Source: Propionivibrio dicarboxylicus
GTDB taxonomy: Bacteria > Pseudomonadota > Gammaproteobacteria > Burkholderiales > Rhodocyclaceae
Assembly: GCF_900099695.1 (NCBI RefSeq)
Contig: NZ_FNCY01000015.1
Location: 1-64,000 of the forward strand
Direction: 5' to 3'
Length of the DNA: 64,000 bases
In this document: piece by piece, positions 8,359 to 64,000 of the stretch
Layout of the letters: each line of letters starts with the position of its first letter
Position numbering within the stretch: the stretch's first letter is position 1
Notes under the pieces: model-generated
Seen by the model: only the letters and a program-made list of their open reading frames with translations
Told to the model about the DNA's origin: nothing
Databases searched by the model: none
Made by a program: the position numbers and the translations under genes

Positions 8359-9645
8359 ATGACAATGGCCATTCCGATGCAGAACACCTCGACCCGGCAC
8401 GCACGTGGCACTGATCTTCACATAAATGTCCGGCATATTCTGTTCGCACTTTCCGATGCCCTCGACCTCGTCGGCATCGACGATGTCGCCCATGGAAAGC
8501 GCGTAGGAATCATGGCCGCCGAATGCGCGAGAAAGGCGGGCGATTCAACCGCCGAGATTTCCGCGCTCTTCGATCTCGGCCTGCTTCATGATATCGGGGT
8601 ATCGTCGTCCATCACGCACGACCATCTCGTGCAAGAATTCGACTGGAACGACGCGCAGAATCACTGTGAAATCGGCTACGGCCTTCTCAACAACTATTCG
8701 CGCCTGACATGGGCGGCGTTGCCGGTCAAATACCACCATACACGCTGGGACTGCCTGCCGGTTGAACGCCTGGGAGAGTCAGTGGCGACCCGGGCGAATC
8801 TGATCTACCTGACCGACCGCGTGGACGGACTGGCCGCGGCGCATTATGCCGATGGCAGCTTGCTGATGAGCACGCAGGCGATCCGCCAGTTCATCGAAAA
8901 ATGCGCAGGCAGCTATTTTTCGCCGGCACTCGTCGAGATGTTCCTCGACGCATCGCGGTCGGAAGCCTTCTGGCTGTCGCTCGAACCGCGTTCGATACAG
9001 GCCTACATGTCGGAGATGTTCGCGCTGGGAGACTATTGCTCGATGGCGCTCCCCGAACTGAAGCAGGTGGCCGAAATATTTTCCCGCATCGTCGACGCCA
9101 AGAGTCCATTCACCGCCGAGCACTCGCATGGGGTCGCCTCATTGGCAAAGCATATCGGCCAACGAATGAGCGTATCGCCGGAAAATTGCGACAAGCTCGA
9201 AATCGCCGGATTGCTGCACGACATCGGCAAGCTACGGGTGCCGGACGATGTCCTCGACAAACCGGGAAAGCTGGACGAGCGGGAACGCAAGATCATGAAC
9301 TCCCACAGTTTCGAGACGTACCAGATATTGCGCTGCATCCCCGGACTCGAAGACATTTCCCGCTGGGCATCCTGTCACCATGAGGAACCGAACGGCAACG
9401 GCTATCCGTTCCACATCGACGCGAGGACACTGGAACTCGAAGCGAGAATTCTCCGCGTCGCCGACATTTTCCAGGCGATGGTGCAGAATCGCCCGTACCG
9501 GCGCGGACTCTCCCAGGCGGACGTGCGCCTGTTCATGGCGGATCTGTGCGCGCAGGGCGCCATCGAGCGGGAAATCTTCGATGCCGTCGACTCGGACTTG
9601 CCCGCCGCATACAAGGCGGCGCTTCCGTCGCTGGCGCCCGTCTGA
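8359..9645 (+). CDS. Tandem HD / HD-GYP domain protein, probable c-di-GMP phosphodiesterase
   Basis: Cytoplasmic protein of 428 residues from ATG 8359 (GGAA 4 nt upstream); the frame is open to 8167. Two HD-type modules are visible. The N-terminal one has HGKR, LLHDIG and YHHTRWD. The C-terminal one has EHSHGV, LLHDIGKLRVPD, SHSFETYQIL and HHEEPNGNGYP, the full HD-GYP signature including GYP. HD-GYP enzymes hydrolyse c-di-GMP with a bimetal or trimetal site, and the histidines and aspartates for this are present in the second module. The first module lacks GYP and may be regulatory. No receiver or sensor domain is fused. Its place between receptors and a PAS regulator fits motility or lifestyle control. 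Confidence 0.85.
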   Translation: MTMAIPMQNTSTRHARGTDLHINVRHILFALSDALDLVGIDDVAHGKRVGIMAAECARKAGDSTAEISALFDLGLLHDIGVSSSITHDHLVQEFDWNDAQNHCEIGYGLLNNYSRLTWAALPVKYHHTRWDCLPVERLGESVATRANLIYLTDRVDGLAAAHYADGSLLMSTQAIRQFIEKCAGSYFSPALVEMFLDASRSEAFWLSLEPRSIQAYMSEMFALGDYCSMALPELKQVAEIFSRIVDAKSPFTAEHSHGVASLAKHIGQRMSVSPENCDKLEIAGLLHDIGKLRVPDDVLDKPGKLDERERKIMNSHSFETYQILRCIPGLEDISRWASCHHEEPNGNGYPFHIDARTLELEARILRVADIFQAMVQNRPYRRGLSQADVRLFMADLCAQGAIEREIFDAVDSDLPAAYKAALPSLAPV

Positions 9646-9709
9646 TCAGGCTCCGGGCGTCAAATTCAGCGTATCGGCGCACGCAAGGCGGCGCACCCGA
9701 CAAAGCGCG

Positions 9710-48979: not shown

Positions 48980-50356
48980 ATGAATCTTCAACAAAACGGC
49001 GAAGAGCTGAAACGCGGCCTGAAAAACCGCCATATCCAGCTCATCGCACTGGGCGGTGCCATTGGTACCGGTCTGTTTCTCGGCATCGCCGACACCATCA
49101 AAATGGCGGGCCCGGCCGTGCTGCTCGGCTACGCCATCGGCGGCTTCATCGCCTTCCTCATCATGCGCCAACTCGGCGAGATGGCGGTGGAAGAGCCGGT
49201 TGCCGGCTCCTTCAGCCACTTTGCCCACAAGTACTGGGGAGAGTCGGCGGGTTTCGCCTCCGGCTGGAACTACTGGGTGCTCTACGTGCTGGTGAGCATG
49301 GCCGAGTTGACTGCGGTCGGTATCTACGTGCAGTACTGGTGGCCCGAGATCCCGACCTGGATGTCGGCGGCCTTCTTCTTCGTGATTATCAACGCGATTA
49401 ATTTGACCAACGTCAAGGCGTTCGGCGAGATGGAGTTCTGGTTCGCCATCATCAAGGTGATCGCCATCCTCGGCATGATCGGCTTTGGCGCTTACCTGCT
49501 GTTCTCCGGCGGTGGCGGTCCCGAGGCCACGATAAGCAACCTCTGGGCTCAGGGCGGCTTCTTCCCCAACGGCTTGGACGGCCTAGTGATGGCCATGGCC
49601 TTTATCATGTTTTCCTTCGGCGGTCTGGAGCTGGTCGGCATCACCGCAGCGGAAGCTGACGATCCCGAGAAGAGCATCCCCAAGGCCACCAACCAGGTGA
49701 TCTACCGCATCCTCATCTTCTATATTGGCGCCCTGACCGTACTGCTCTCGCTCTACCCCTGGGGCAAGGTGGTCGAAGGAGGCAGCCCCTTCGTGATGAT
49801 CTTCCATGCCCTGGACAGCGATCTGGTGGCCAACGTGCTGAACCTGGTCGTGCTGACCGCCGCGCTCTCCGTCTACAACAGCTGTGTCTACTGCAACAGC
49901 CGCATGCTGTTCGGTCTCGCCAAGCAGGGCGACGCCCCCACGGCGCTGCTCAAGACCACCAAGAGCGGCGTCCCCCTGATGGCCCTCACCATCTCGGCCG
50001 CCGCCACCCTGCTGTGCGTGCTGATCAACTACCTGATCCCGGGCAAGGCCTTTGGTCTGCTGATGTCGCTGGTGGTCTCTGCCCTGGTCATCAACTGGGC
50101 CATGATCAGCCTGGCGCACCTCAAATTCCGCAAGGTCAAGGCCGCCGAGGGGGTGACCACCAAGTTCAAGGCGCTGTGGAGTCCGTTTGGCAACTACCTC
50201 TGCCTCGCCTTCATGGCCGCCGTCCTGGTAATCATGTACATGAACGACGGTACTCGCATCTCGGTCGAGTTGATCCCGGCCTGGCTGGTCGTGCTCGGCC
50301 TGGGGTCTCTGTTCAAGCTAAGACGTCAGGGCCAGGTTGCGACCGACCTGACCTGA
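48980..50356 (+). CDS. aroP: Aromatic amino acid permease AroP
   Basis: APC-superfamily permease of 458 residues with 12 predicted TM segments. Long runs match enterobacterial AroP: LKRGLKNRHIQLIALGGAIG, MRQLGEMAVEEPVAGSFSHF, FGGLELVGITAAEADDPE and YNSCVYCNSRMLFGLA. It imports phenylalanine, tyrosine and tryptophan with protons. The start is fixed by the family N-terminus, although no ribosome site is evident. Similarity to gammaproteobacterial AroP is higher than I would expect for a betaproteobacterium, and it stands alone between decayed DNA and its own terminator, so recent transfer is likely. Confidence 0.9.
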   Translation: MNLQQNGEELKRGLKNRHIQLIALGGAIGTGLFLGIADTIKMAGPAVLLGYAIGGFIAFLIMRQLGEMAVEEPVAGSFSHFAHKYWGESAGFASGWNYWVLYVLVSMAELTAVGIYVQYWWPEIPTWMSAAFFFVIINAINLTNVKAFGEMEFWFAIIKVIAILGMIGFGAYLLFSGGGGPEATISNLWAQGGFFPNGLDGLVMAMAFIMFSFGGLELVGITAAEADDPEKSIPKATNQVIYRILIFYIGALTVLLSLYPWGKVVEGGSPFVMIFHALDSDLVANVLNLVVLTAALSVYNSCVYCNSRMLFGLAKQGDAPTALLKTTKSGVPLMALTISAAATLLCVLINYLIPGKAFGLLMSLVVSALVINWAMISLAHLKFRKVKAAEGVTTKFKALWSPFGNYLCLAFMAAVLVIMYMNDGTRISVELIPAWLVVLGLGSLFKLRRQGQVATDLT

Positions 50357-50379
50357 GCATAGCTACGCTTTTCACGCAC

Positions 50380-50409
50380 ATGCCGGTCGATGATCGGCAT
50401 TTTTCTTTC
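50380..50409 (+). terminator. Intrinsic terminator of aroP
   Basis: ATGCCGGTC and GATCGGCAT pair over 9 bp (one G-U) around a 3-nt loop and run into TTTTTCTTT. It lies 23 bp after the aroP stop. DNA from 50410 to 50587 shows no gene. Confidence 0.85.
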
Positions 50410-50587
50410 TGCCGTCCGAGCGTGCTGATGAAAACAGCCCTGGCAACCGTCAGCGCCCCAAGGGCAGATCACTTCCCTTTGCCCCAGGCGAATAATGTGG
50501 CGGCACTTCTGCCCCTGAGGCGGACGTCAACAGCGCCAGACACATCCGCTCCCGACGGCAGGTCCCATTACGCTGTCCGCATACCGG

Positions 50588-53506
50588 TCAGGAATGCGCC
50601 GTCCCGGCTTTCCGCAGTCTGGCGGTGAACCAGAAGGTACTGCCTTGGCCGAGCCTGCTTTCACACCCTGCCGTGCCCCCCATCAATTCGGCCAGTTTCC
50701 TGGTAATCACCAGGCCAAGCCCTGTGCCGCCATATCGACGCGTCGTGCTGCTATCCGCCTGTTCGAAAGCATTGAACAGCCTGTTCGCCACGTCAGGATC
50801 AATGCCGATTCCCGAATCTTCGACTTCGAACCGGACCAGGACAGTGTCTGGCGTTTCTTCTGCTGTCAGGGTTCTCAGGATCACCTGGCCTTGTTCGGTA
50901 AATTTGATGGCGTTACCGGCGTAATTGAGCAAGGCCTGTTTCAGCCGGGTGGGATCGCCGATCAGGCTACCCGTCCGAGGCTCGTTGTCGACAGAGATAT
51001 GAAGCCCCTTCATCTCCGCCGCAGGCTCCATCATCGTGGCGACGTCTCCGGTGATTTTTTCCAGACTTATCCCGACTTCCTCCAGGGTGACCTTGTCCGC
51101 TTCTATCTTGGAAAGATCGAGGATGCCATTGATGACGTCGACCAGATGCGTACCGGACGCTTCGAGTTTATCCAGTTGTTCGAGTTGCTTTGGCGTCAGT
51201 CCGCCCCGCCGGATGAGATGTGCCATACCGAGAACGCCGTTCAGCGGCGTACGCAGCTCGTGACTCATGTTGGCGAGGAATGTGCTCTTGGCGCGGCTCG
51301 CGGCTTCGGCCGCCTCCTTGGCCTCCTTCAGGATGAACTCCGCCTCCTTCTGCAAGGTAACATCCATCGCGATGCCATGTAATCCCACCGGTCTGCCGGC
51401 ATCATCGCAAGTGCGCTCACCCCGCGCCAGAATCCAACCGTTGCTGCCATCGGCGCGACGTGTCTGCAGTTCCAGTTCGTAGGGCTCTCCCGTCTGAGCC
51501 GTCTTTTCCAGCGCTGCGGACAACCGGGTCCAACTTTCCGGGGTGAATATGCTGTTGTGAATCGAGTAATTCGGCGGCGGCTGGCCGGGATCGGCATTGA
51601 ACATCCGATAGAGCTCATCAGACCAAGTGACATTGTTTGTCGCCAGATCGAGTTGCCAACTCCCCATCGAGGCAATTCTTTGAGCTTCGTGCAAATCGGC
51701 GGTGCGTTGTCTTATCTGTGCTTCCAGCGTTTCCTTGTGACGTCCAAGGGCATTTTCGGCATGCTTACGTTCCGTGATATCGATCAGCGTGACCAGATGA
51801 ATTGAATCCAGCCCCTCTGGAAGAGACGTCGCTGCCACCATGACGACTCGAACGTCGTTTGTGCGGGTCGTAATCTCGACTTCGATGGGGTCGACCTTGT
51901 CTTTCCCCTGCAGTACGGATTCAACATATGCCAGCCACTTCTGCTGAACCCGGGCTCGATAATCGGGATCCGGATAGGCTTTCTGCCACCAATCGGCGAC
52001 CGTCGGAATGTCGTCGAGCGTATAGCCAAATGCCTTGGTAAAAGCATCATTCAAGTACGTGATGTCGAGCGCATCATCATTCAGCGCCATCGGAATTGGC
52101 GACGCTTCGATAATGGCCCGGAATCGTTCCGAGGCAATTCGCTGGGATTTTTCGAGTCGAACGTGTTCGCTGATGTCGCTGAAAATGGTGGCAAACTGGT
52201 CCGGCCCGGGTGAGACGACCGAAATGGAAAAAGTCTTGTCGAGGGGAGGAAAGTAGGTTTCAAACCGCAACGCTTGCCTGGTGGTAACGACCTGAGCATA
52301 TTCAGCCAGGAAGGGCACACCGCCATAGGCTTGCGTCGCCGTCTTGCCGATCACGTCCTGCGCTCGCAGGCCTGTATGACCTTCGTATGCGGGGTTGGTG
52401 TCAAGTATCAGATAATCGATCGGGCGCCCTTCAGGGTCACGCATCAGGCGATGTAAGGCGACGCCCTCGGTCATGCTGTCGTAGAGCGAATGAAACCGCG
52501 CCTCGCTCTCTTCCAGCGCAATTCTCTGCGTATAGCGACGCCGAAGAATCTTATGCAGCGCAATGACCAGGGCGGAAAAGGCAATGCAGACCAGAATTGT
52601 CCAGACAATGCCCGGACGTATTCCGCCGATGATGAATTCATGCTTGGCCGAGATGCCGATATCCAGTCCGGTTTCGCCAATGCGACCGAAAACGAGGATG
52701 CGTCGCTGATTGTCGGTCACCACGTTTCCGAGGTAGCGTGTCAGTTTGCTACCTGAGCTGAGATAGGTCTGGAAGGCGTCTCCGCTGGCAATATTCTTGC
52801 CGATATGCTTTTCCGGATCGGGCAAACGGAAGAGAACATCGCCTTCCCGATTATGAATTGCCGCCGCATCGATCTCCTTGTTTGCCAGTACGTCAACCAG
52901 CAATGGCTCGAGAGACTGAAGCACCAGGGTTCCAACCACAACGCCGAGAAACTCCCCGGACGAGTTACGGATGGCTTGGGAGATTGCGATCGTCTGCTTG
53001 CCTGTGACTGCGCTGAAGACCCGCGATATATGAGTCCGATTGACATCCCCGGACTTGGCATCCCGGTGAAATTGAAAGTAGTCCCGCCCGGCGACGTTGA
53101 ATCCCCGTAGCGCATCCAGGTCGTCACCTGCCTGAATGCTTTCCGCGCTGGTAATCGTGCCCGTGCGATCCGCGGTAAATACGGTATCGATTTCGGAAAA
53201 CTGTTTCAGGAAGGCCCGCTGGCGTTGTGCCACGAAACTGAGAGAGGCGACCGGCACGACCGACTGATCGGCCACCAAACCGTGCAACCCGACATCCAGC
53301 CCGCGAAGGAAACCACTGACCTTGGCATCGGCAACCAGCGCATGGTTTTCCAGTGCATGGAACTCCGACTCAATAGCATCCTGATATGCCTGGAAAATAT
53401 TGACGGCACCAATTGCATAGATCGCAACCAGCATGAACACCAGACCCGATACCGAGTTCAGTCGGTGGCCCGCATGGTCAATTGCACGTTGAAGTTTATT
53501 GCCCAT
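50588..53506 (-). CDS. Membrane PAS sensor histidine kinase
   Basis: Kinase of 972 residues. TM1 is at about 18-40, a double-Cache-like periplasmic domain spans about 45-290, and TM2 is at about 300-318. Three PAS/PAC modules follow (about 330-690), with linker phrases [20 protein letters not shown] and [10 protein letters not shown]. HisKA carries the phosphoacceptor in [15 protein letters not shown] (about 740). HATPase has N and G boxes [19 protein letters not shown] and GGTGLGL. Proteins with this layout are often hybrids, but here the frame ends right after the ATPase domain, with no receiver. No response regulator gene is adjacent, so the partner is elsewhere. Confidence 0.9.
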
Positions 53507-53545
53507 TGCCGATTCTTATGGCTTCTGATTATTAGTGCATGTTAA

Positions 53546-53830
53546 TCATACCTTCATATCGTCGAGCAATGCATCAGCAAGATGGCGATCGTGCAATGAG
53601 GCCAACCCGGCGGCTGACGGGAGCCGACTCCATTCCCCCAACCAATTCAATCGGATAAGCAAGACCCGGGTAGTGACCAGCGCTTGAATTTCGCGAGCGC
53701 GAACTCTTGGCAGCCAGAGGATCATTTCGAATGATGCCAATTGCACCTCGAACGCCCGACACATCGCGAGTCGTTGCGAATCCGACGCCGCTCATTTGCG
53801 CGTAGCGTGTTCGCCTGCTGCGAGCTTCCA
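53546..53830 (-). pseudogene. Possible decayed AraC cupin-type regulator fragment
   Basis: The minus-strand frame 53764-53546 reads ILWLPRVRAREI, VTTRVLLIRLNWL and ASLHDRHLADALLDDMKV. This resembles the end of the cupin domain and the linker of AraC regulators, where the phrase L-x-D-x-x-x-x-x-A-L precedes the HTH. An overlapping frame covers the part before it, as if a frameshift had occurred. The HTH region is missing. The match is from memory of the family pattern and is weak. Confidence 0.3.
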
Positions 53831-54151
53831 TTTTTCCGATTCCAGGAGGGCCTGTTTGTGCTGAAGAATTGGCGCACCGGTTCGGAGTGTCGAACGGCGG
53901 CTTGAGGTCGAAAGTGCGCGTTCACGGGGATCGGAAACAGACCTTAAAGCGCCGGGACGACTAAACTGACCCAGCGACTGCCGCCCAACACTTAAGACTG
54001 ACCCAAGGCCACTTTGGCCGACGACAGGGCTTCGCGGCCAGAGCGATCATTCATGAGGGAGTTTTTTTGATGGACTGCTATCCCACTTATTGCCGCCGTT
54101 GATCGCCAGGGCTAAATGAATGGCGGCGTACGATATGCAAGGCCATGACTC
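53831..54151. other. Gene-free 320 bp with repeated AAACTGACCCA-like text
   Basis: No gene is seen. A short direct repeat, AACTGACCCA and GACTGACCCA, occurs near 53965 and 53995; such text is frequent at remnants of IS21-type insertions. No transposase frame or terminal repeat pair is present. Confidence 0.35.
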
Positions 54152-55570
54152 TCAACGAATTCCGACAACAACCGAAGCGGTACCACGGATAATCTTGCGG
54201 CAGCGCGGAGAATTACACTGACATTCAAATGGAATCATGCCATCGTTACAGATCGTGGCGTAATCGAGCGTCAACTCTTCTCCCGCCGCGATATCACGTA
54301 CGGCGACAACATTCAATCCCGAATAGCGCGTATTGGGATCACACGAATGGTTTTGTGGCGCCCAGTTTTCCGGTTGATCATCCCACAACAGCGAAACATG
54401 TGAATTGAGCGGAAGAGCATAGCGCCGGAATATCTCGATCTGATCGGCCGGCCAGTGTTGTTCAACATGAGGAAAACTGACGAGTCGTTGTGCTCTTTCC
54501 TCAAAGCGAAAGACAGTTTCTCCTTGTTGGATAGCCTCGCGCGCATAGATGCCATATCCGGAAATCGCGTTGCCACGACGAACCCAACGTCGCCGCCGGC
54601 TTCGATGTCGTGCTTTGCCTTCGTCGATGATCTGTCGCAGGAATCCGCTGGCGGTGAGGGCGTCACTTTTCAGTATGTAGTCGGCCGAACCTTCATGCCC
54701 CTCGGCGTAAAACACCGAGCAAGCAAAATTGATATCGATAAAAAATACCGAGCCTTGCGCATCAACCCGAAAATCCAGGCGAGCGTAACCTTCTCCTGAA
54801 AAACCCACGAAAATAGCCTTGGCGGCTTGTCGCAAGGATTGATCGAGTTCTTGATCCTGAAGCGGCACATTGGCCTCCGGATGATGTTCCCGAATCTTGA
54901 GATCGTAGGTCTTGAAGGCGTCAGGATGTTCGAATACAAATTCAAGCGGCCTTAATACCGTGGGGTCGAACGGTTTGTTCGGATTGGCGACGACCAGAAC
55001 GGTAAATTCACGACCGGGAATGAATTCCTCGACCAGCGCACTGCCGAAACGGTCGATCACTTGTTGGCATTGCGCCCTTAACCCGTTGGCGTCTTGCACG
55101 CGCGAGTTCGTATCGATCCCGAGACTGTCTCCGGCGTGTGCCGGTTTGACGAACAACGGGAAACGCAACTGCGTCAATGCGGCCTCGCAGTCGTCTGGCG
55201 TATTCACCTCGACGCAAGGAGGCGACTTCACTCCTTGTGTGTATGCCACATACTTCATTAGCGGCTTTGACGGGTCGTACACGCGCAAGCTGGGGCCGGT
55301 GTAAGGCAACTCAAGGGCTTCCAGGCTCCATATGACATCCACCGAAGGAATATCCCAGTCGAGATAACCTTCGCACAGATTGACAAATATGGCGTACCCC
55401 CGACGACTGGCTTCACGTAACTGGCGATGGACGGATCGCTTGTCGAGAAAGAGGTGATCGACCTGGCAGTCCGGAAGCAGCGCCGACAGATCTCGCGGCG
55501 GATCGTACATCCCGTGGTCCTGGGAGGACTCGGGATAGAGGGGTTGCAGTACGCAGACTCTCTCGCGCAT
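54152..55570 (-). CDS. ATP-grasp ligase fused to a SET-domain methyltransferase
   Basis: A 472-residue two-domain protein. Residues 1-310 are a D-Ala-D-Ala-ligase-like ATP-grasp unit: KPLMKYVAYTQGVKSPP, LFVKPAHAGDSLGID, VEEFIPGREFTVL and ARLDF...FFIDINFA. The last metal-binding motif has Asp where ligases usually have Glu (ExN to DxN). Residues 325-460 are a SET domain: GYGIYA cofactor loop, QNHSCDPNT, GEELTLDY with the catalytic Tyr, and a post-SET FECQCNSPRC zinc motif. ATP-grasp enzymes join a carboxylate to an amine; SET proteins methylate lysines using SAM. One chain with both suggests ligation and N-methylation of a shared product or carrier. It begins 7 nt after the preceding gene. Function is unknown. 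Confidence 0.85.
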   Translation of the reverse strand: MRERVCVLQPLYPESSQDHGMYDPPRDLSALLPDCQVDHLFLDKRSVHRQLREASRRGYAIFVNLCEGYLDWDIPSVDVIWSLEALELPYTGPSLRVYDPSKPLMKYVAYTQGVKSPPCVEVNTPDDCEAALTQLRFPLFVKPAHAGDSLGIDTNSRVQDANGLRAQCQQVIDRFGSALVEEFIPGREFTVLVVANPNKPFDPTVLRPLEFVFEHPDAFKTYDLKIREHHPEANVPLQDQELDQSLRQAAKAIFVGFSGEGYARLDFRVDAQGSVFFIDINFACSVFYAEGHEGSADYILKSDALTASGFLRQIIDEGKARHRSRRRRWVRRGNAISGYGIYAREAIQQGETVFRFEERAQRLVSFPHVEQHWPADQIEIFRRYALPLNSHVSLLWDDQPENWAPQNHSCDPNTRYSGLNVVAVRDIAAGEELTLDYATICNDGMIPFECQCNSPRCRKIIRGTASVVVGIR

Positions 55571-55577
55571 CAGATAT

Positions 55578-56738
55578 TCATCCAGCTTGGGGTCGATCGA
55601 ATGATGACATTGTCTTGGATATGATCGTACCTATCAAGTCTGGAAAGGAAAGACCGGCAAAATGCAGGATATTGCCGAGCGATGTCTGATCGTCCCCTGA
55701 CAAACCGCAGTTCGCATTGACTTCGAGAACATGGAGGCGGCCACTGCGATGATCCTGGCGAATATCGATGCGTCCGTAACCATGCCCGCGAACAGCGCAG
55801 TAGGCGAGTTTTCCGATCGTCTCGAGGGTCGAATGCAAGGCCGCAGGCGCCGGCTGATAGTGGTAGAAGGCTTTTCCATCCGGCGGGGCGGACTCTTCCT
55901 GATAATGCCCCCAATAGCGATCGAAAGACAGGAAACGTTCTGCCGGCGGTATGTCCGGATGAAAAATGCGTTCGACGGGCGGCAGGCTCCACAGGCTGTC
56001 GGGCTGATGGTGTTCCCCACCGACGAACAACGTAAACTCCCTGCCCTCAATGTAGCGTTCGGCAATAAAAGTCGCCGTCGCAAAATATTTCGCGAAGCGT
56101 CCGGACTTCAATTCGTCACGGTATGCCAGCAGTTCCGACAGGGAATGCACCACGGAACGGAGCGAAATACCATAGCTGGCCGCCGAAACGTCAGGTTTGC
56201 AGAACAACGGCCAGTCGAAGTCCCCGGACGGCATGTCGGGGGGCGCGGCATTTGGGAGCACGCAGAACGGTGCGGTTGGCACGCCGGCTTCCTGGAAGAG
56301 CTGTTTCATCCGAATCTTGGAAGTGGAAATCCGGAAAAATTCAGCATTGGCGCCCGTAAAAGGCACACCGGAACGTTCCAGTGCGCTGACGACCGAGAGG
56401 CCGGGGCTCTCGTTTGGGTCGTCAACTCCGTCGCAGAAATTGAACACGACGACAGGGCGACTTCTGCCGCTTGCGACGACCTGCGCGATGATTCGATCCA
56501 GATTGCCATGGACGATCGGTTGCCAGACCCAGGGCAGACCGAGCTGTTGAAAGGTCTGCGCAAGTTCGACCTTGAAATCCGCGGTGTCGTAGCTGTCGCC
56601 GACCAGGCTGTTCTGTTCGATCCAGAACGGGATGAACGCCCAGACAAGCGGCGGCGAAGACGCCGATAACTCAGAGGGATGATGCGGTATGCAGGTTGGA
56701 TCGGACATGACAGTTTTCTGACTTTGGTACTTCGTCAT
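55578..56738 (-). CDS. Stand-alone D-Ala-D-Ala-ligase-like ATP-grasp enzyme
   Basis: ATP-grasp ligase of 386 residues. N-terminal domain with VVVFNFCDGVDDPNE and RSGVPFTGANAEFF; then STSKIRMKQLFQEAGVPTAP, PLFCKPDVSAASYGISL, FIAERYIEGREFTLFVGG and GRIDIRQD...LEVNANCGLS. Here Asp, Glu and Asn of the metal site are all intact. It should make an amide between amino acids or related acids with ATP. The ATG at 56738 overlaps the exporter gene by 68 nt; an ATG at 56708 gives a smaller overlap. It is distinct from the housekeeping cell-wall ligase by context: no mur genes, but an exporter and SET genes. Confidence 0.87.
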   Translation of the reverse strand: MTKYQSQKTVMSDPTCIPHHPSELSASSPPLVWAFIPFWIEQNSLVGDSYDTADFKVELAQTFQQLGLPWVWQPIVHGNLDRIIAQVVASGRSRPVVVFNFCDGVDDPNESPGLSVVSALERSGVPFTGANAEFFRISTSKIRMKQLFQEAGVPTAPFCVLPNAAPPDMPSGDFDWPLFCKPDVSAASYGISLRSVVHSLSELLAYRDELKSGRFAKYFATATFIAERYIEGREFTLFVGGEHHQPDSLWSLPPVERIFHPDIPPAERFLSFDRYWGHYQEESAPPDGKAFYHYQPAPAALHSTLETIGKLAYCAVRGHGYGRIDIRQDHRSGRLHVLEVNANCGLSGDDQTSLGNILHFAGLSFPDLIGTIISKTMSSFDRPQAG

Positions 56739-58419
56739 CGGAATTGCCGCAGGCCAGACGACCGTTGTTCAGGACGTAAACATGATCGGCAAGTGCGGCC
56801 AGGCTGAGGCGATGAGTGACGGCAATCAGCGTGATTCGCCGTGTTTCCGCCAGACGGCGCAAGGTGGCCAGCAACTCTGCCTCCGTAGCAACGTCGAGTG
56901 CTGACGTAGCTTCGTCCAGAATCAGAATTGCCGGGCGACGAACCAAGGCTCGTGCGAGAATCAGGCGCTGACGCTCTCCTCCCGAAAACCGCGCACCACG
57001 CTCGCCCACGAGCGTATCCAAGCCGGCCGGCAGAGCCAGGACGAAATCGAGGATTTCGGCGCTGCGTAACGCCTCAAGAATTTCCGTATCCGTGGCATCC
57101 AATTTGCCCATACGAATGTTGTCGCGCAACGAAAGATCAAATAGCAGCACATCCTGGGAGACAAGACCGAACTGCGTGCGAAGCGAATCAATCGAAGCAT
57201 CGCGAATATCGTTTCCGTCAAAGAGGATCCGCCCCCGGCTGGGGTCATACAAGCGTAGAAGCAGTTGTAGCAGCGTTGTTTTCCCGGAACCGCTGGGGCC
57301 GACCAACACCGAGAACTCGCCTCGCCGGAAAACCACGGAGATATCTTGCAGTGCGGCAGAGCGGCTATCCGCAGCCCGGTGCGGATAAGCAAACGACACC
57401 GAGTCGAGGCGGAGTTCTCGCTGAAATGGCGGTAGGCAGACGGGGACTTCTGCCTCCGCAACCGTCGGTTGTTCCCTGAAAATCTCGTTGAGCCTTTCCA
57501 TGCTGGCAGTCGCTTCGATCATGACCGGCGCCAACCAGGTCAGGTTGGAAATTGCAGTGTTCAGCCCCAACACCAGGATCTGAAAAGAGACAATCTCGCC
57601 GCTGCTGAGATGCCCTTGTAATGCCAGGACCGAACTGATGCCGAGAATGATCAAAGCGAGAATGAAAAATGAGACCGATGGAATGCGCTGAACGACATAT
57701 GACAGAAAACTGGAACGGATCGATAACTTGATCAGAATATTCGTTTCGTCATTGAAGCGCCGATACACTTCGTGTTCCAGGCCAAACGCCTTGATTACCG
57801 ATTGCCCTTGCAACCCTTCCTGAATCGTCGCGGACAAGCGCCCGGATTGGCGGCGGGTATCCAGAGAGGCTTGCCGAGCGCGCCAAAGCACAGTTCTTGG
57901 CAAGAGGAAGCACGCTGCTACGCCAAGAACCGCCAAAAGGGCCATCCATGGCTGAATGGACGCCATGAACAGGGTCGCGAATGTCACGCTGAACACACCG
58001 GTCAGCGCATAGGGAACGACCGTAACCAGGCAGTTTTCGACGGTTTCGGCGTCGGCAAGAAAACAATTGAGCACGTCGCCGGAAGAACGTTTTCCGAAAA
58101 ATTCAATGGACAGACGCTGCACATGACGATAGAGATCCCGGCGCAGATCATTGATGACCAGGGTTCCAAGTTTGGCCCAGAGATAGTCGGCAACCAGGGC
58201 CAGGGCGGAAAACAGCACGGTGGCGACGCCAAGTAACGTCAGCACAAGAATCAGCATTGAACTATCACGAGGCACGATCGCCTCGTCGATCAGAATGCGA
58301 AAACTGTAACGGGTCGCGCTATCCAGTGCCGCCTCGAAAACGAGACTGCCCAACAGGGTCAGCGTCATCCACGGGTGTGGCCTGAGATACGCTGATAGCT
58401 GAAGAAAAAATGCCCGAAT
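56671..58419 (-). CDS. ABC exporter (fused membrane and ATPase domains), ATT start
   Basis: MsbA/lipid A- or peptide-exporter-type half transporter, 582 residues from an ATT codon at 58419. That start has AGGAGG exactly 6 nt upstream, and the 17 added residues (FFLQLSAYLRPHPW) complete the first helix; the first ATG (58368) lies inside TM1 and has no ribosome site. Six TM helices fill residues 20-310. The ATPase has Walker A GPSGSGKT, Q-loop VSQD, signature FSGGERQR, Walker B ILILDEATSALD and switch H in VTHR. It lacks an N-terminal peptidase domain, so any leader would be cut elsewhere. It is 20 bp after the small SET gene and overlaps the next ligase. It probably exports the cluster's product. 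Confidence 0.88.
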   Translation of the reverse strand: MRAFFLQLSAYLRPHPWMTLTLLGSLVFEAALDSATRYSFRILIDEAIVPRDSSMLILVLTLLGVATVLFSALALVADYLWAKLGTLVINDLRRDLYRHVQRLSIEFFGKRSSGDVLNCFLADAETVENCLVTVVPYALTGVFSVTFATLFMASIQPWMALLAVLGVAACFLLPRTVLWRARQASLDTRRQSGRLSATIQEGLQGQSVIKAFGLEHEVYRRFNDETNILIKLSIRSSFLSYVVQRIPSVSFFILALIILGISSVLALQGHLSSGEIVSFQILVLGLNTAISNLTWLAPVMIEATASMERLNEIFREQPTVAEAEVPVCLPPFQRELRLDSVSFAYPHRAADSRSAALQDISVVFRRGEFSVLVGPSGSGKTTLLQLLLRLYDPSRGRILFDGNDIRDASIDSLRTQFGLVSQDVLLFDLSLRDNIRMGKLDATDTEILEALRSAEILDFVLALPAGLDTLVGERGARFSGGERQRLILARALVRRPAILILDEATSALDVATEAELLATLRRLAETRRITLIAVTHRLSLAALADHVYVLNNGRLACGNSDDEVPKSENCHVRSNLHTASSL

Positions 58420-58439
58420 GACAAGCCTCCTGTTATCTG

Positions 58440-58979
58440 TCAGGCAGCTCGATTGCGTTGCTTCATCGCCTTGATGTGGTTGGAAAGCTCATATGATTCC
58501 AGGACCGATTCCTCCAAATGAGCGGCTCCCTCGATAAACCCGAGGCAATTGTCAGCACGACAATTGCATTGAAATGACTGATTCATCGACCATTCTGTCG
58601 ACGGATAAAAAAAGCACAACTCTTCACCTGGAGCGATGGTGCGCAACGCGCGCAAATGCCGGGCATCAACGTCAAAAAAGACGTTGGGCGAGCAACTGTG
58701 GTTGATGTATTCGAGGTGCGCGGGAAAGAGCATGCCGTGCTCTGCTTCGCCAAATTGAACGGACAGGTAATTGGGCGCGATCACCAAGCTGCGAAAGCCA
58801 ATTTCGGAAAGCACTTCGCCTTCCTGGAATGCCATGCTGGCATGCAAGGCCTTTTCGCCGGAGAGGAGAGATTCACGAATAACAAAACTGCCTTGGGCGA
58901 CCGTGGTGGTTTTCGTATCTGTACTGTTTTCAGCGGCAGGGTGTTTTTCCGGAGACTGGCAATGGAGAATGTTTGTCAT
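58440..58979 (-). CDS. Small SET-domain protein
   Basis: Protein of 179 residues from ATG 58979 (upstream ATG at 59048 possible; no good ribosome site at either). SET landmarks: EYINHSCSPNVFF, GEELCFFYP with the catalytic Tyr, and post-SET FQCNCRADNC, the same CxCx4C as in the fused protein. The cofactor loop is altered: GEKALHA stands where GxG is expected, so SAM binding may differ. It is the first gene of the four-gene operon. Bacterial SET proteins of this type methylate protein lysines; the substrate here is not known. Confidence 0.8.
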   Translation of the reverse strand: MTNILHCQSPEKHPAAENSTDTKTTTVAQGSFVIRESLLSGEKALHASMAFQEGEVLSEIGFRSLVIAPNYLSVQFGEAEHGMLFPAHLEYINHSCSPNVFFDVDARHLRALRTIAPGEELCFFYPSTEWSMNQSFQCNCRADNCLGFIEGAAHLEESVLESYELSNHIKAMKQRNRAA

Positions 58980-59056
58980 GAGAATATATTTTTCGCGCAC
59001 AGGAATGCAGAGCATCCAACTTGAATAAATCGGCAGCAAGTATTCCATGTTGTCAT
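58976..59056 (-). CDS. Possible cysteine-rich leader ORF before the SET gene
   Basis: A frame from ATG 59056 encodes 26 residues, MTTWNTCCRFIQVGC then SAFLCAKNIFS, with four cysteines. Its TGA overlaps the SET ATG as ATGA, the classic coupling pattern. The frame is open further up to 59299. No ribosome site is seen and no homologue is known to me. It could be a precursor peptide, an upstream regulatory ORF, or chance. Confidence 0.25.
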   Translation of the reverse strand: MTTWNTCCRFIQVGCSAFLCAKNIFS

Positions 59057-59595
59057 ATATCGTGGGGTAATGTCACTACAAATACCTAGTCCATGGCTTT
59101 GCAAAGAACATAACCGCACATCCAGGAGAATTCGGCGCGTGGCCGAACTTTGGATTGCGTGCATCTTCAGATAGCGAAAATTGTAGTTTGGCAATGCTTT
59201 CGACTGGATGGCAGGGGCATGCACATAACTGATTGAGTTTGACTGCGGCGCAGAGGTTCGGAATGGTCGACCGGTTTTCGATGAGCTCATTGCTGCCAAT
59301 GCGCTCTGTAACCCTGAAACTTTCTGTTGACTATTCGGCAGGTCAGGCCTTTGCTGACCTTGAGCTCTCGGCCAGACTCGGGCTGCACTGGGTCAGTCAA
59401 CAGCCATTCAGCCGAAAAATCCGCCCAATATCAGCTTGCCGATTCGGCGCCCCCCTCCGACTCACAAGAAACCATCATTGCCTTGGAGGTTGAGCGACGG
59501 GCTCTTGAGTGGAACGGTCGTCCGCAGTCGTGGCTGGCAGCGAACTGCTCGGCTTGAGCCGTCATCCGAGGACTGCAATTTGAACGGCAGCGGAG
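59057..59595. other. 540 bp without a supported gene
   Basis: Upstream region of the SET/ATP-grasp operon. The part near 59057-59110 is AT-rich and probably carries its promoter (several TATA-like hexamers, no clear pair). From 59230 to 59590 the DNA looks like decayed coding or repeat text. It shares a TTTGAACGGCAGCG-like phrase with 48810-48835. Confidence 0.45.
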
Positions 59596-59782
59596 CTAAC
59601 GTATTGAGGCTACCTCGACAAAGGCAGTGCCGTTGTAAGCATCGATCTGGATGCTGCCTTTCAGGTTACCGTGGCTTAGACAGTCGGCTTTGCCCGAGCA
59701 ATTTGGCAGATTGTTCGCCCGTGCGAGCGCGGAGGCAAGGAGCTTCCTCGCTTGGTCATCCGTATGGCGGTGGATTAACGCC
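59596..59782 (-). pseudogene. C-terminal fragment of an unknown protein
   Basis: From about 59782 leftwards one frame stays open to the TAG at 59596 and reads as natural protein: DDQARKLLASALARANNL, NCSGKADCLSHGNLKG, SIQIDAYNGTAFVEVASIR. There is no start codon, and the fragment abuts the end of the EamA gene in another frame. I do not recognise it. It is probably the tail of a gene whose front was lost when the flanking DNA was rearranged. Confidence 0.4.
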
Positions 59783-60673
59783 TCATTTCGACTGCTGCCA
59801 TGCTCGTAGGTGTGGCCAAAGAAGATTCAACGCCAAACCCGCCATTACGAAACTGGCAGCCACCAGTTTCCATGGAGGAAGTGATTCGCCAAGCAGCAGC
59901 GTTGAGGCGCCTATGCCGAAGATGGGCACGAGCAAGGCCATGGGGGTAATCGTTGCCATCGGGTAACGTGCCAGCAGCCAACCCCAGGCTACGTAGCCGA
60001 AAAGCGTATTGCCCCACGCCTGCCATGCTACGGCGAGCCAAGAGCTGCCGCTAATCTGCCCGAAGGCAATCTGAATAGCTCCCGGCCCGTCGATAACGAC
60101 AGAGAGCAGCATGAGCGGAGGTATCGCAAAGGCGCTGGACCAGACAACATAAGCCATCATGTTGGCTGGTCGCCCGAATTTTGCCGCCATGTTTGCACCG
60201 GCCCACGAAAGCGCCGCACAAATTACTAACCCCAATCCGCCTACAGTCGTTGTGCCGTCCGTGTGATAAATAATTAGGGCAATACCACCGGTGGCAAGAA
60301 ATAGAGAAAGATATTGATAAATCCGGATACGTTCGCCCGCCAGCAACGCCGCCAACCCAATCGTGAAGAAAACTTGCGACTGAATGACTAGAGAGGCAAT
60401 GCCCGGTGATATCAGGCCATTCATCGCGATGTAGAGCAGTCCGAATTGCCCCACTCCAATCAAGATGCCATACAAGGCCAGATTGCCCAGTGAAACAGAC
60501 GGGCGCGGAAAAACGACAGCCGCCGGCAAAAAAACCAAAATGAAACGTAATGTAGCAAAGAGCAGAGGCGGCACATCGCCAAGCGCTATCTTGATGACGA
60601 CGAAATTGGTTCCCCATACAGCGACAACAGCCAGTGCGAGAAGAAAATGGCGCAGCGACAGCGATGACGTCAT
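59783..60673 (-). CDS. EamA-family (DMT) transporter
   Basis: Drug/metabolite transporter of 296 residues with ten TM segments in two EamA repeats (WGTNFVVIKIAL near 20; LSWAGANMAAKFG near 160). Such carriers export amino acids, their derivatives or metabolites. It shares strand with the ATP-grasp/SET operon but is separated by about 800 bp of decayed DNA, so a joint role is only possible. Confidence 0.85.
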   Translation of the reverse strand: MTSSLSLRHFLLALAVVAVWGTNFVVIKIALGDVPPLLFATLRFILVFLPAAVVFPRPSVSLGNLALYGILIGVGQFGLLYIAMNGLISPGIASLVIQSQVFFTIGLAALLAGERIRIYQYLSLFLATGGIALIIYHTDGTTTVGGLGLVICAALSWAGANMAAKFGRPANMMAYVVWSSAFAIPPLMLLSVVIDGPGAIQIAFGQISGSSWLAVAWQAWGNTLFGYVAWGWLLARYPMATITPMALLVPIFGIGASTLLLGESLPPWKLVAASFVMAGLALNLLWPHLRAWQQSK

Positions 60674-60732
60674 TGGAAAAATCTCATTCGACTAAATTTC
60701 TCCAGGAGACCGGTCGGCGCTCTCACTTGAGT

Positions 60733-60850
60733 ATTCTCATCAAAACCGACAGCCTTTCGCGAGCTAAAACCGCCACCGATTCGCGTTTCAAAATTGCCTG
60801 TCATTCGCACACCAAAACCGCCATATATTCTCATTTGCAATCCATCACCA
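60733..60850. repeat. Array of five degenerate 24-bp repeats
   Basis: Units begin at 60733, 60755, 60779, 60803 and 60827, a spacing of 22, 24, 24 and 24 bp. Consensus is ATTCGCAnnnCAAAACCGCCA; units 1 and 4 are nearest to it and unit 5 is the most worn. The array lies in the 325-bp gap between the EamA and CHAT genes, which holds nothing else I can name. Regularly spaced sites of this kind look like transposase-binding repeats at the end of an IS21- or Tn7-like element, or like operators. Confidence 0.7.
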
Positions 60851-60998
60851 TCATGCTCAGGAAAATTGCTTGGCAGGTTACGGCTTATCGGCCTAAGCTG
60901 ATCCCGGATCTTGGGCCAGATTCCGGCGACGATGCGTCATTTACCAGACGCTCAAACGTTGATAGCAGTCAATGGACTTTAACTCACCCCCCTCACTC

Positions 60999-63900
60999 TT
61001 ACTCAATTTCTGTTCCACCTTCCCCAACGACTACGAATGGTGCCCAGAACATTGGATGTGCGTATTCAGGGCGATTCGGAGTGTTGATCAGGGCCAGCAT
61101 CGCCTTGCGGTGAGCTTCTGCCTTTCCTTGTTCTGGGTGAACGTTGTACTCCTTTAACATGCCGGTCGTTAGCGGCACAGTGGCTTCTGAAGCAACTGGC
61201 CAGTGCGAAACGAGTAGCGAACGAGCGCCGGAGTAAAAGAACGCCTTGGCCAGTCCTGAAAAACCCTCTGCTCCTGGGCTGCCATCGGTCGCCGCGGTAT
61301 TGCACGCTGAAAGCACTACCCAATCTGCATTGAGCCGAAGCTGCGCCACTTCACTAGCGGCAAGATAGCCGTCGTCCATTGCGCTGCCTTTTGCTGGAGG
61401 GGTTAGGATCAGTCCGGGCTCGCCAATGCCCTGGATTTCTCCGGCCATAACACCATGGGTGGCAAAGACGACAGTGCGGAAGCGGCTTAAATCCAGCCTC
61501 TTAACCGTTGCCTCGCTAGCCTGATGCTGCAGCCAAATCGTATCTGCTCCAGCCTTGAGTACTGTACCTATAGCACGAAGTTCATCTGCGGTTTCAGGCA
61601 GGCGTGGCGCACGTCGAATGACATCGACATCGGCGATTTCAGCCTGTACTGCGCCCGTCGTGGCATCAGTTTGAGTTGCCGGATTGCGGAAGACGGATGC
61701 CATGGTCAGTGAGCCCCGTTTGCCGCGAACCCCTCCCTCTGTTTCGCCAATAAGAGGATCGCCGAATCCGACGAACGGCTCTCGGGCGGCTTCGGTTTTC
61801 GAGAACTGACGAAATGCCTGGAGCGAGCCAACGGAAGGCAATACCGAGATGGCGTAGCGTTTGACCAGCCAATCGATCTTGCGGTAGTCAGCACTGGTCT
61901 TGATCGCTGGCGGTGGAGTCGCAATCAGCATACTGAACGACAGGCTCTGCAAAGCACCGACTGGCACGACCAGTAGATGCTTGACACCATCGAGATGCGG
62001 TTGAGCCGGCTTCATCAATGCCTGGTAAAGCGCGTGCAGCACACCCGCATCAAGGCGCATCAGTGCTCCGTTTGCATCGATCATCATGTTTGCACGCGCA
62101 GCAGCGACCTTGGCGCTGACATCATTGACGTCGGCAGATAGCGGCAAGAACATGGCCTTGTCCTGTCTCACCACCCAAAGATGATTTTTCTCACCCAAGG
62201 CATACACGAGCAATGCCTCCCCGTGCTTTAACAATGAGCGTATCCGGCCCAAATCAAGAGGCGCTTGCCGTGTCAGTTCCTGATATTGAGGAAAGCTGAG
62301 CGCCAGCTCAGCATTGATAGTCTCGATTTCCTGGCTGATGCTGACGATTTCACCACGGATCCGTTGCTCGTCGGCAACAACGCGTTGTGCGGAAGGCCTG
62401 CTGGCCACCTTCAGCAATTTCGCTTCGTGCCTAGCCCGACGCTCTGCTGCATCTTGTTTGCGTTTGATCAAACCGGCCAGCGTATCGTCGCCTGTGGCGA
62501 AACGAGCAGCCATCTTTGCGATGGCAGAGGCGGTACCGCTCATCTGTTCGAGCTGAACAATCTGCAGCGACTCATCCACAATGACATCGACTTCTTCCTG
62601 ATTCGGGTTGAGTGAGAGCAAAGCAAGATGGTTCTGGAACCCAGTGCGATTTGTCACCGCTTCACGCAGAGCCGCGTCGTCTGTACCGCCATTAGCTATG
62701 CGTTGCCGGGCAATGGCGCTGGCTCGCCGCGCCAGAAGCAGTGCCTCAACATTACGGCCTTGTTTGCGATACATCTTGGCTTGGTTGTTGAGACTCAGCG
62801 CAAGACCAGGATGGTCTTCACCGACGATCTTCTCGACGACCAGGCGCGACCGCTGATAGAGGGCCTCAGCCTTGGCGTAATCCCCCTGCGCTTGATAGAG
62901 ATCGGCCTCCTTGTGCAGGCTAGTCGCTACCAATGCGTGATCCGGTCCCAGACTGTCCTCAAGAACTTCGTGTGCCTGCCTGAACAACGGCAGAGCCTCC
63001 TCGTACCGCCCCTGCTTTCCGATGGCCTCAGCAAGGTTATAGAGGTTTGTACCCAGTTCGAAATTTTTCTTGGTCAGTGTCTTTTCGCGGATCAGCAGCG
63101 CTTGCCGATAAAGCACTTCCGCTTCGGCATATCGGCCCTGGTCGACCCACTGATAAGCCTGATCACTCAGCACTTCGGCCACTCGCGGGTGATCGGGGCC
63201 CAACGCGTCATTCAGTATTCGCCGCGCACGCTCTCTGAGCTCGTCTGCGAGTACGTATTTCTTTTCGGTGGTGTAGAGGGCTGCAAGATTATTTAGGCTA
63301 GTCGCCAAATCGGGATTGTTCGCACCAAGGGCCTGTTCGCGGATTTCCAAGGCACGCTTGAGCAATGCTTCAACCACGTTGTGTTGCCCTTGCGCGTAAT
63401 GCGCCAGCGCGAGTTGGTTAAGTACAGATGCAACGTGAGGATGGGTTGGGCCGAGCGACTTTTCGATGATAGCAAGCGCTCGCCTGAAGAGTTTTTCCGC
63501 TTGTAAGTACTGGTCTTGCGCCAGATATGGCCCTGCCAGGTTAACCAGACTGACCGCGACGTTGGGGTGCTCTTGCCCTAAGGCTTTCTCTCGTAAAGCA
63601 AGAGATCGTTTCTGCACGGCCTCTGCCCGAGCATACTCACCTTGAGCGGTGTAGAGTTCGCCCAGGTTGTTCAGAATGTAGCCAAGATCAGGATGATTGG
63701 GTCCGAACGCTTTCTCGCAGATCGCCAGCGCACGCTTCAGAAGGGGCTCCGCTTGGGAGTAGCGTGCTTGGTTCATATAAAGAAAAGCCAGGTTGCTCAA
63801 GCTTACCGCCAAGGCAGGATTTTCCGGACCCAGCGCCTTTTCCTGGATTGCCAGCGCGCGCTGGGCGAGCGCCTCTGCCTGGATGAGACGTCCACGTTCA

Positions 63901-64000
63901 AAAGCTACTCCGGTAATTTTGATGAGCAACTGCGCTGTATTCGGGTGGTCTGGTCCGTACGCCCTTTCGTATACATCCAACGCTTGCTGATAGAGCTGTT
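60999..64000 (-). CDS. TPR-CHAT caspase-like protein (partial, 5' end outside)
   Basis: At least 1000 residues; the frame is still open at the window edge (QLYQQALDVYERAYGPDHP in pieces), so the start lies beyond. The N-terminal part has about twelve 42-residue Kinesin-light-chain-type TPRs (ALAIQEKALGPENPALA pattern). A linker with coiled coil follows, then a CHAT peptidase domain in the last 330 residues. The catalytic pair is present: His in VVFATHGVMAGE and Cys in VVLSACNTAATDG. WPVASEATVPL and HPMFWAPFVVVG are typical CHAT endings. TPR-CHAT proteins are caspase-like proteases that act in signalling or in defence; this one has no CRISPR or gasdermin neighbour in the window. Confidence 0.9.
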   Translation of the reverse strand, partial: QLYQQALDVYERAYGPDHPNTAQLLIKITGVAFERGRLIQAEALAQRALAIQEKALGPENPALAVSLSNLAFLYMNQARYSQAEPLLKRALAICEKAFGPNHPDLGYILNNLGELYTAQGEYARAEAVQKRSLALREKALGQEHPNVAVSLVNLAGPYLAQDQYLQAEKLFRRALAIIEKSLGPTHPHVASVLNQLALAHYAQGQHNVVEALLKRALEIREQALGANNPDLATSLNNLAALYTTEKKYVLADELRERARRILNDALGPDHPRVAEVLSDQAYQWVDQGRYAEAEVLYRQALLIREKTLTKKNFELGTNLYNLAEAIGKQGRYEEALPLFRQAHEVLEDSLGPDHALVATSLHKEADLYQAQGDYAKAEALYQRSRLVVEKIVGEDHPGLALSLNNQAKMYRKQGRNVEALLLARRASAIARQRIANGGTDDAALREAVTNRTGFQNHLALLSLNPNQEEVDVIVDESLQIVQLEQMSGTASAIAKMAARFATGDDTLAGLIKRKQDAAERRARHEAKLLKVASRPSAQRVVADEQRIRGEIVSISQEIETINAELALSFPQYQELTRQAPLDLGRIRSLLKHGEALLVYALGEKNHLWVVRQDKAMFLPLSADVNDVSAKVAAARANMMIDANGALMRLDAGVLHALYQALMKPAQPHLDGVKHLLVVPVGALQSLSFSMLIATPPPAIKTSADYRKIDWLVKRYAISVLPSVGSLQAFRQFSKTEAAREPFVGFGDPLIGETEGGVRGKRGSLTMASVFRNPATQTDATTGAVQAEIADVDVIRRAPRLPETADELRAIGTVLKAGADTIWLQHQASEATVKRLDLSRFRTVVFATHGVMAGEIQGIGEPGLILTPPAKGSAMDDGYLAASEVAQLRLNADWVVLSACNTAATDGSPGAEGFSGLAKAFFYSGARSLLVSHWPVASEATVPLTTGMLKEYNVHPEQGKAEAHRKAMLALINTPNRPEYAHPMFWAPFVVVGEGGTEIE

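Follow-up and report, generated by a model that had tools for sequence, protein, structure and literature searches.

What kind of product can be expected from two ATP-grasp ligases, two SET domains and an exporter that are encoded side by side? This question is raised by four adjacent minus-strand genes in a stretch of 64,000 nt from Propionivibrio dicarboxylicus (contig NZ_FNCY01000015.1, positions 1 to 64,000; hereafter the window). Read along the minus strand, they encode a standalone SET methyltransferase, an ATP-binding cassette (ABC) exporter, an ATP-grasp ligase resembling D-alanine-D-alanine ligase (Ddl) and here called ATPg, and a second such ligase with a C-terminal SET domain, here called GS. 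The initial annotation, made from the letters alone, took the set for a small biosynthetic cluster of ligases, methyltransferases and an exporter, a view that is well supported by our results. We consider it rather probable that the operon is a self-contained unit for the biosynthesis and export of a small methylated peptide or amino-acid conjugate, which would be formed independently of the ribosome and of nonribosomal peptide synthetases (NRPS).

The four-gene neighbourhood is not due to chance, because the same neighbours recur in loci that were gathered by the GS protein or its profile alone, and for this reason the genes around GS are an independent observation. A pattern scan of species genomes, which detects close matches to short peptides and gives a lower bound, found at least 14 loci, 13 of them titled Chitinophagaceae, Ferruginibacter, Chitinophaga or Bacteroidetes and one titled Streptomyces griseus. 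The latter (L012, a metagenome-assembled genome) shows the Chitinophagaceae gene order, and its title is probably wrong. According to whole-genome profile searches, a full-length GS is rare in the phylum of the window and commoner in that of G806, a Chitinophagaceae genome. It is present in 2 of 59 relatives, in 2 of 249 genomes of the family, and in one of 399 and one of 398 genomes of the order and phylum samples (in both cases the window's own), compared with 15 of 296 genomes in the phylum of G806 (the genome of L018, itself counted in). The total is 30 GS loci, with G806 counted once, distributed over Betaproteobacteria and Bacteroidota. ATPg adjoins GS in 20 of the 30, and a standalone SET does so in 23 of the 28 loci with enough contig (L013 and L015 are cut). 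An exporter-type gene lies beside GS in 18 of the 29 loci able to show one (the contig of L074 ends inside GS and was left out): nine are full ABC proteins, and the nine others possess the transmembrane domain (TMD) only, a count that corresponds to a nine-locus protein cluster (c10) of which two members were checked in Pfam. The initial annotation had made its reading depend on such co-localisation, and the homologues do lie together in another genus and in another phylum.

Three layouts of the operon can be distinguished. Type I, in Betaproteobacteria, has the order SET-ABC-ATPg-GS and comprises the window and G030, a genome of the same family and another genus, whose proteins are 65% (SET), 74% (ABC), 59% and 56% (ATPg) and 73% (GS) identical to those of the window. 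GS relatives from the pattern-scan loci show 49-53% identity in 12 of 12 aligned rows. The 16S gene of the window's genome (contig C14) shares 91.1% identity with that of Cupriavidus campinensis and 83.8% with that of Escherichia coli, and the 25 plasmid-collection records listed out of 545 all belong to betaproteobacterial genera, so that we regard the host as a betaproteobacterium; the assignment of the other lineage to Bacteroidota follows record titles. Tandem copies of ATPg (L049:8535-9731 and 9622-10725) give the G030 operon three ATP-grasp ligases. Type II, found in 18 loci of Bacteroidota, is arranged as (SET)-ATPg-GS, followed in nine of them by the TMD-only ABC protein, and L068 has the SET gene last. 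This TMD-only protein is of the ABC_membrane_3 type, has no ATPase domain of its own and stands directly after GS (L018:9010-9894, L010:9504-10463 and seven more). Type III, on a distant branch of Bacteroidota that came from the search in the phylum of G806, consists of SET-GS-ABC-mini-SET without ATPg in seven of its eight loci, the eighth being the cut L074. The mini-SET of 118-123 aa (L071:5336-5698 and six other loci) is about as small as the smallest solved SET among the matches listed (1n3j, 119 aa). In a tree of the 30 GS proteins, type I (100/100) and type III (100/100) are set off from the remainder; the trees of GS, SETs and ligases all carry long-branch or long-row warnings. Common to both phyla are SET, GS and an ABC exporter, to which types I and II add ATPg as a second ligase. 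In the stretch L070:6066-11099, a lone GS gene is found between genes for a gamma-glutamyltranspeptidase and an N-formylglutamate amidohydrolase.

The exporter carries PF00664 (1.5e-34) and PF00005 (3.3e-32) in one chain, which identifies it as being of the ABC-exporter type, and its nearest NCBIfam model is MsbA_rel (TIGR02204), with a score under the cut-off. With the window protein as query, the operon ABC protein scored 402.7 bits in G975 and 401.0 bits in G1058, the next best of 41 and 44 matches scoring 230 and 234.6. In G1017, G1018 and G897, where the GS locus has no ABC exporter, the best matches scored 268.6, 223.5 and 217.4 bits. In the reverse direction, a type III exporter searched against G000 found the window protein at 400.6 bits and the next at 244.9. 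Although they come from two phyla and from operons that are otherwise laid out differently, the ABC proteins of the window and of type III are reciprocal best hits, which points to the exporter as a member of the common module.

In the window, all four genes stand in a row as intact open reading frames (ORFs; Table 1). Their products have the lengths given in the initial annotation, if the ABC gene is read from an ATT codon. The first ATG of the ABC frame, at 58368, would yield 565 aa, and the longer form begins at an in-frame ATT six bases 3' of an AGGAGG sequence; the gene may start there, at a rare start codon. For the standalone SET, a longer form of 202 aa from an ATG at 59048 is also conceivable, but the start at 58979 is favoured because the homologue in L049 likewise starts with MTN. 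The genes are as tightly packed as had been stated: 20 bp separate SET from the probable start of ABC, ABC and ATPg overlap by 68 bp, and a gap of 7 bp lies between ATPg and GS. Promoter-like sites (4 versus 2.9, standard deviation 1.5, in shuffled sequences) and terminator-like sites (4 versus 7.4) at the operon are not above chance. Control by a riboswitch was rejected, as Rfam gives no match at E <= 0.1 in window positions 50000-61000 and none in six relatives apart from one tRNA.

Table 1. Features of the operon in the window (TMD, transmembrane domain; NBD, nucleotide-binding domain)
Feature	Position	Strand	Remarks
Standalone SET methyltransferase	58440..58979	-	179 aa; motifs NHSCSPN, FYPSTE, CNCRADNC; PF00856
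ABC exporter, TMD fused to NBD	56671..58419	-	582 aa if read from ATT 58419, 565 aa from ATG 58368; PF00664 + PF00005
ATPg, Ddl-like ATP-grasp ligase	55578..56738	-	386 aa; PF07478 1.4e-10
GS, ATP-grasp ligase with C-terminal SET	54152..55570	-	472 aa; PF07478 + PF00856
AGGAGG, putative ribosome-binding site of ABC gene	58426..58431	-	read from the sequence

Both ligases belong to the ATP-grasp superfamily. This is indicated by PF07478 (Dala_Dala_lig_C; in GS 6.5e-20 at residues 126-281, with PF00856 following, 5e-12 at 338-437), by a Foldseek search with the GS model whose 50 listed matches are all D-Ala-D-Ala or D-Ala-D-Lac ligases (E 1.3e-19), and by residues that we take to bind ATP and Mg. 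The profile of ATPg matches Ddl (2e-17), BacD (3wnz; 4.2e-6) and an L-amino acid ligase (4wd3; 5.8e-5). With the NCBIfam model for Ddl (TIGR01205), however, GS scores 75.2 and ATPg 58.7 bits, far under the cut-off of 245.65. In a tree of 41 ATP-grasp proteins (11 of the 30 GS, nine ATPg copies from eight loci and 21 other ATP-grasps), GS and ATPg form one clade (100/99) in which GS (100/99) and ATPg (99/97) are sisters; the presumed Ddl of the window's genome (contig C23) groups with the Ddl of relatives and apart from this clade, subject to the long-branch warning. Because they are sister groups in one clade, GS and ATPg look like products of one duplication and not like the Ddl of the genome. 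Their identity as housekeeping Ddl, which the initial annotation had named as fatal to its reading, is rejected on the basis of this clade and the separate Ddl. In another family (f61), tandem Ddl-like ATP-grasp genes occur at L050:5907-7945, with no SET match nearby in the stretch read, and the GS/ATPg clade has one of these copies as its nearest outgroup, although the branches are long.

The active-site residues of the ligases appear to be kept in part. We take Lys97, Lys144, Asp257, Glu270 and Asn272 of Escherichia coli DdlB to bind ATP and Mg, and Arg255 and Ser281 to bind the carboxylate of the second substrate; all these positions are kept in the aligned GS and ATPg rows. In GS, Lys106, Lys142, Glu181, Arg264, Asp266, Asp/Glu279, Asn281 and Ser295 align with the presumed ATP/Mg and acceptor-carboxylate residues of Ddl, so both sites are probably retained. 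On the donor side, all 6 Ddl rows in the correct frame carry the motif S(A/S)ERE(V/I)SL, which each of the 19 GS and ATPg rows lacks (the Ddl rows of L003 and L022, wrong-strand ORFs, were excluded from the alignment, and the tree has the correct ones). At the position presumed to correspond to Ser150 of Ddl, type I and type II GS have Asp, as does L069; type III has Ala, L070 has Ser, and ATPg has Gly or Ala. The presumed counterpart of Tyr216 reads Ile in type I and Thr in L069 and the type II rows; type III and L070 have Trp there, and in ATPg the position could not be located. Since the acceptor-carboxylate residues are kept while the donor motif and the Ser150 and Tyr216 positions are changed, we infer that the ligases would use an ordinary carboxylate-bearing acceptor and an unusual donor. 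A further motif, N-x-C-(D/E)-G, is common to both ligases (NLCEA in L069) and is not found in the Ddl rows.

The SET domains are likewise genuine members of their superfamily (46.6 and 38.4 bits against a cut-off of 22.4; PF00856 at 1.8e-9 for the 202-aa form of the standalone SET). None of the 13 and 11 aligned rows deviates in the NHxC motif or the C-terminal Tyr; the alignments A1, A2 and A3 hold 12, 10 and 12 of the 14 pattern-scan loci besides the window. Their closest solved relative is BurB, an enzyme that methylates the sulfur of free methionine (PMC12542666, PMC7496086). In the PDB, BurB is the first match of the standalone SET (phmmer, 1.9e-11; next 6e-7), of the profile built from alignment A2 (2.8e-18; next 2.2e-8), of the SET half of GS alone (6.7e-13; next 8.7e-8) and of a type III SET (9.6e-13; next 4e-5). 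In a SET tree (14 of 30 GS-SETs, 14 of 23 standalone SETs, 4 of 7 mini-SETs and three others), standalone SETs, GS-SETs and mini-SETs each lie on one side of a branch. Among the standalone SETs, types I and III each form a group and type II does not, L067 being placed apart.

From these parts a pathway can be proposed. Like Ddl, but through a rebuilt donor site, ATPg and the ATP-grasp half of GS would spend ATP to activate a carboxylate, which they would couple to an acceptor with a carboxylate of its own. With S-adenosylmethionine (SAM) as methyl source, the standalone SET and its counterpart in GS would modify a side chain, either of the amino acid or of the product of ligation, as in BurB chemistry. 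Two or three SET domains could act before or after ligation, the GS fusion would couple ligation and methylation on one molecule, and the ABC protein would pump the product out. Gene order, domains, conservation, co-inheritance and kinship of the proteins are observed, and within this scheme we infer the small-molecule substrate, the order of the steps, the direction of transport and the identity of the product.

The scheme has two versions, which differ in the methylated atom. An N-methylated peptide or amino acid, modified on the side chain of lysine, ornithine or histidine, is possible though doubtful. Most characterised SET domains are lysine N-methyltransferases, and the NHxC motif and C-terminal Tyr are invariant here, but the closest solved relative is an S-methyltransferase. 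The initial annotation had spoken of SET lysine methyltransferases and of an N-methylated product. This does not follow, because the nearest solved SET is BurB and the methylated atom is thereby not fixed as nitrogen; the earlier interpretation as a whole is partly supported.

Rather unlikely, in our view, is the version in which S-methylmethionine, formed by the standalone SET as it is by BurB, is linked by the ligases to another amino acid, the resulting sulfonium peptide then being exported. Each of the four SET types tested has BurB as its closest solved SET, and the Y-x-STE motif is common to these SETs and BurB. Moreover, the gene of a related SET, L054, begins 34 bp after a diaminopimelate-decarboxylase-like gene, and decarboxylation is the step after S-methylmethionine in the bur pathway (PMC7496086). 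However, identity to BurB is only about 25%, and the presence of two or three SETs in an operon suggests that more than one atom is methylated. BurB also binds methionine via main-chain atoms (PMC12542666), so that the use of methionine as substrate by these SETs cannot be read from sequence. The arrangement at L054:5116-6988 is a possible second small-molecule SET pathway in its own right.

Instead of a free product, the ligases might extend the chain of a protein or peptide and the SETs methylate this tail, as in ribosomally synthesized and post-translationally modified peptides (RiPPs) or in the work of tubulin tyrosine ligase (TTL) enzymes. Such a modified tail is improbable and less likely than a free exported small molecule. 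Graspetides are indeed made by ATP-grasp ligases (PMC8939145), and tubulins are extended with amino acids by TTL domains (PMC3520985), but BurB, the nearest solved SET, has a free amino acid as its substrate, the presumed acceptor-carboxylate residues of Ddl are kept, and the Pfam search detected no peptidase domain in the exporter. Furthermore, among 195 ORFs of 18-110 codons that lie outside the larger genes, inside the 30 operons or no more than 700 bases away, no family (E <= 1e-3) occurs in more than two loci, and a RiPP pathway with its precursor inside the operon is unlikely for this reason. Very improbable is a role in the cell envelope, where an altered D-amino-acid dipeptide for peptidoglycan or capsule would be flipped by the ABC protein: the ligases are Ddl-like and a PGA_cap gene lies 3.2 kb past the operon in L049, but the Ddl donor-site motif is not present, the ligases fall outside the Ddl clade in a genome with a separate Ddl, and the other recurrent neighbours are Chitinophagaceae chromosome genes not common to the window (families tested in part).

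Several observations nevertheless weigh against biosynthesis and export of a small molecule. Of 29 loci, 11 have neither kind of exporter beside GS, and 5 of 28 have no standalone SET there; two GS genes (L069 and L070) stand alone, and a peptide precursor could still be encoded elsewhere in the genome. The GS model is weak (mean pLDDT 67.9, with residues 386-419 and 432-472 below 50) and its SET half unusable. In Foldseek, the model of the standalone SET (pLDDT 85.1) has BurB chains at ranks 1-3 (5e-9 to 1.1e-8; next 6.4e-6), but the alignments have an rmsd of 10-12, so the ranking alone was used. For the mini-SET, BurB is barely first (2.6e-10, versus 1.3e-9 for histone H3 lysine 4 enzymes). 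Nearness to BurB appears to be neither general among bacterial SETs nor confined to these operons, because a control SET of the same order (L055) prefers MLL1 (2.7e-27; BurB absent from the best 60 of 132 matches) while L054, of the same phylum and outside such operons, prefers BurB; L054 also joins the standalone SETs in the tree (93/68, long branch). BurB is one of few bacterial SET structures, so being nearest to it is no proof of the same substrate.

The surroundings of the operon were considered as well. An EamA gene flanks it and has a relative with 89% identity in the same genus; as G030 carries the operon too, chance adjacency or a chimeric contig was rejected. Past the EamA gene, none of the flanks aligned in L080 or L081 in an empty-site comparison, and at E <= 1e-150 the downstream histidine kinase is matched in none of the 39 other genomes in a set of 40 relatives. 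An origin from phages or plasmids was rejected, since neither collection holds a record covering 80% of GS. A defence system was likewise rejected, as the SET and ligase proteins tested (three of the window, two of L071) gave no PADLOC match at E <= 0.01, and the PADLOC matches of the exporter were read as generic ATPase matches. Upstream of the EamA gene, at 60999-63980 of the window, a TPR-CHAT protein is encoded, possibly a caspase-like protease. NRPS, polyketide synthase (PKS) and cell-wall families had been said to be lacking nearby, and they gave no match at E <= 1e-10 in the 10 large window ORFs tested (two of which matched nothing) or in the five neighbours tested.

The operon is best described as a probable ATP-grasp peptide pathway, with a real chance of a new metabolite class. 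We think it quite possible, if not quite probable, that it represents the first recognised pathway family in which SET enzymes tailor small peptides made by ATP-grasp ligases, partly as a fusion, with a dedicated exporter and in two phyla. If so, the bacteria would export a metabolite of a new class, for which a sulfonium or N-methyl peptide is a candidate. The best-known role of SET enzymes is the methylation of histone lysines. BurB has been called remarkable, natural-product methyltransferases having previously come from classes I and III only (PMC7496086). If SET chemistry proved to be applied to small molecules a second time and more widely, the many unannotated bacterial SET genes would have to be read differently. 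The module, with three to five genes, is small enough for expression as a whole in a laboratory host, which makes its product directly searchable.

The titles and abstract starts of the open-access matches listed contain no bacterial ATP-grasp–SET fusion or operon (subscription papers and bioRxiv lay outside this scope), and a review of bacterial SET proteins uses neither 'ATP-grasp' nor 'ligase'. The one open-access source found to join ATP-grasp, SET domain and peptide concerns TTLL12 (PMC3520985). This agrees with the initial annotation, which knew of no described pathway, with BurB (SET without ATP-grasp) and TTLL12 (SET-like plus TTL) as partial precedents. Ddl resembles GS in its ATP-grasp fold and in its presumed ATP/Mg and acceptor-carboxylate residues, but forms a separate clade, possesses the donor motif and is free of the SET fusion, GS and ATPg scoring far under its NCBIfam cut-off. 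BacD and the L-amino acid ligases form peptide bonds from free amino acids without NRPS and make dipeptide antibiotics; they work alike and match ATPg weakly in profile searches, although the ATPg sequence is nearer to Ddl, and we know of no SET partners for them. Graspetide clusters also combine an ATP-grasp ligase with a methyltransferase and an ABC exporter, but they have a precursor peptide, and their commonest methyltransferase is similar to isoaspartyl O-methyltransferase; the main text of the survey does not mention 'SET domain' (PMC8939145). The eukaryotic TTLL12, like GS, unites SET-like and ATP-grasp-type domains in one protein, but its ligase is of the TTL and not the Ddl family, work on it concerns tubulin and histones, and it reportedly lacks histone methyltransferase activity in vitro (PMC3520985). 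BurB (PDB 9l4t/9l4v), from the malleicyprol/dimethylsulfoniopropionate (DMSP) pathway of Burkholderia thailandensis, differs in being a single-domain protein that works with a decarboxylase and a thiotemplate assembly line and no ATP-grasp ligases (PMC7496086). Like the standalone SET of the operon, it is a small separate protein with the SET fold and SAM chemistry; it shares the Y-x-STE and C-x-C motifs with the operon SETs and is the top match of the standalone SET in both sequence and fold.

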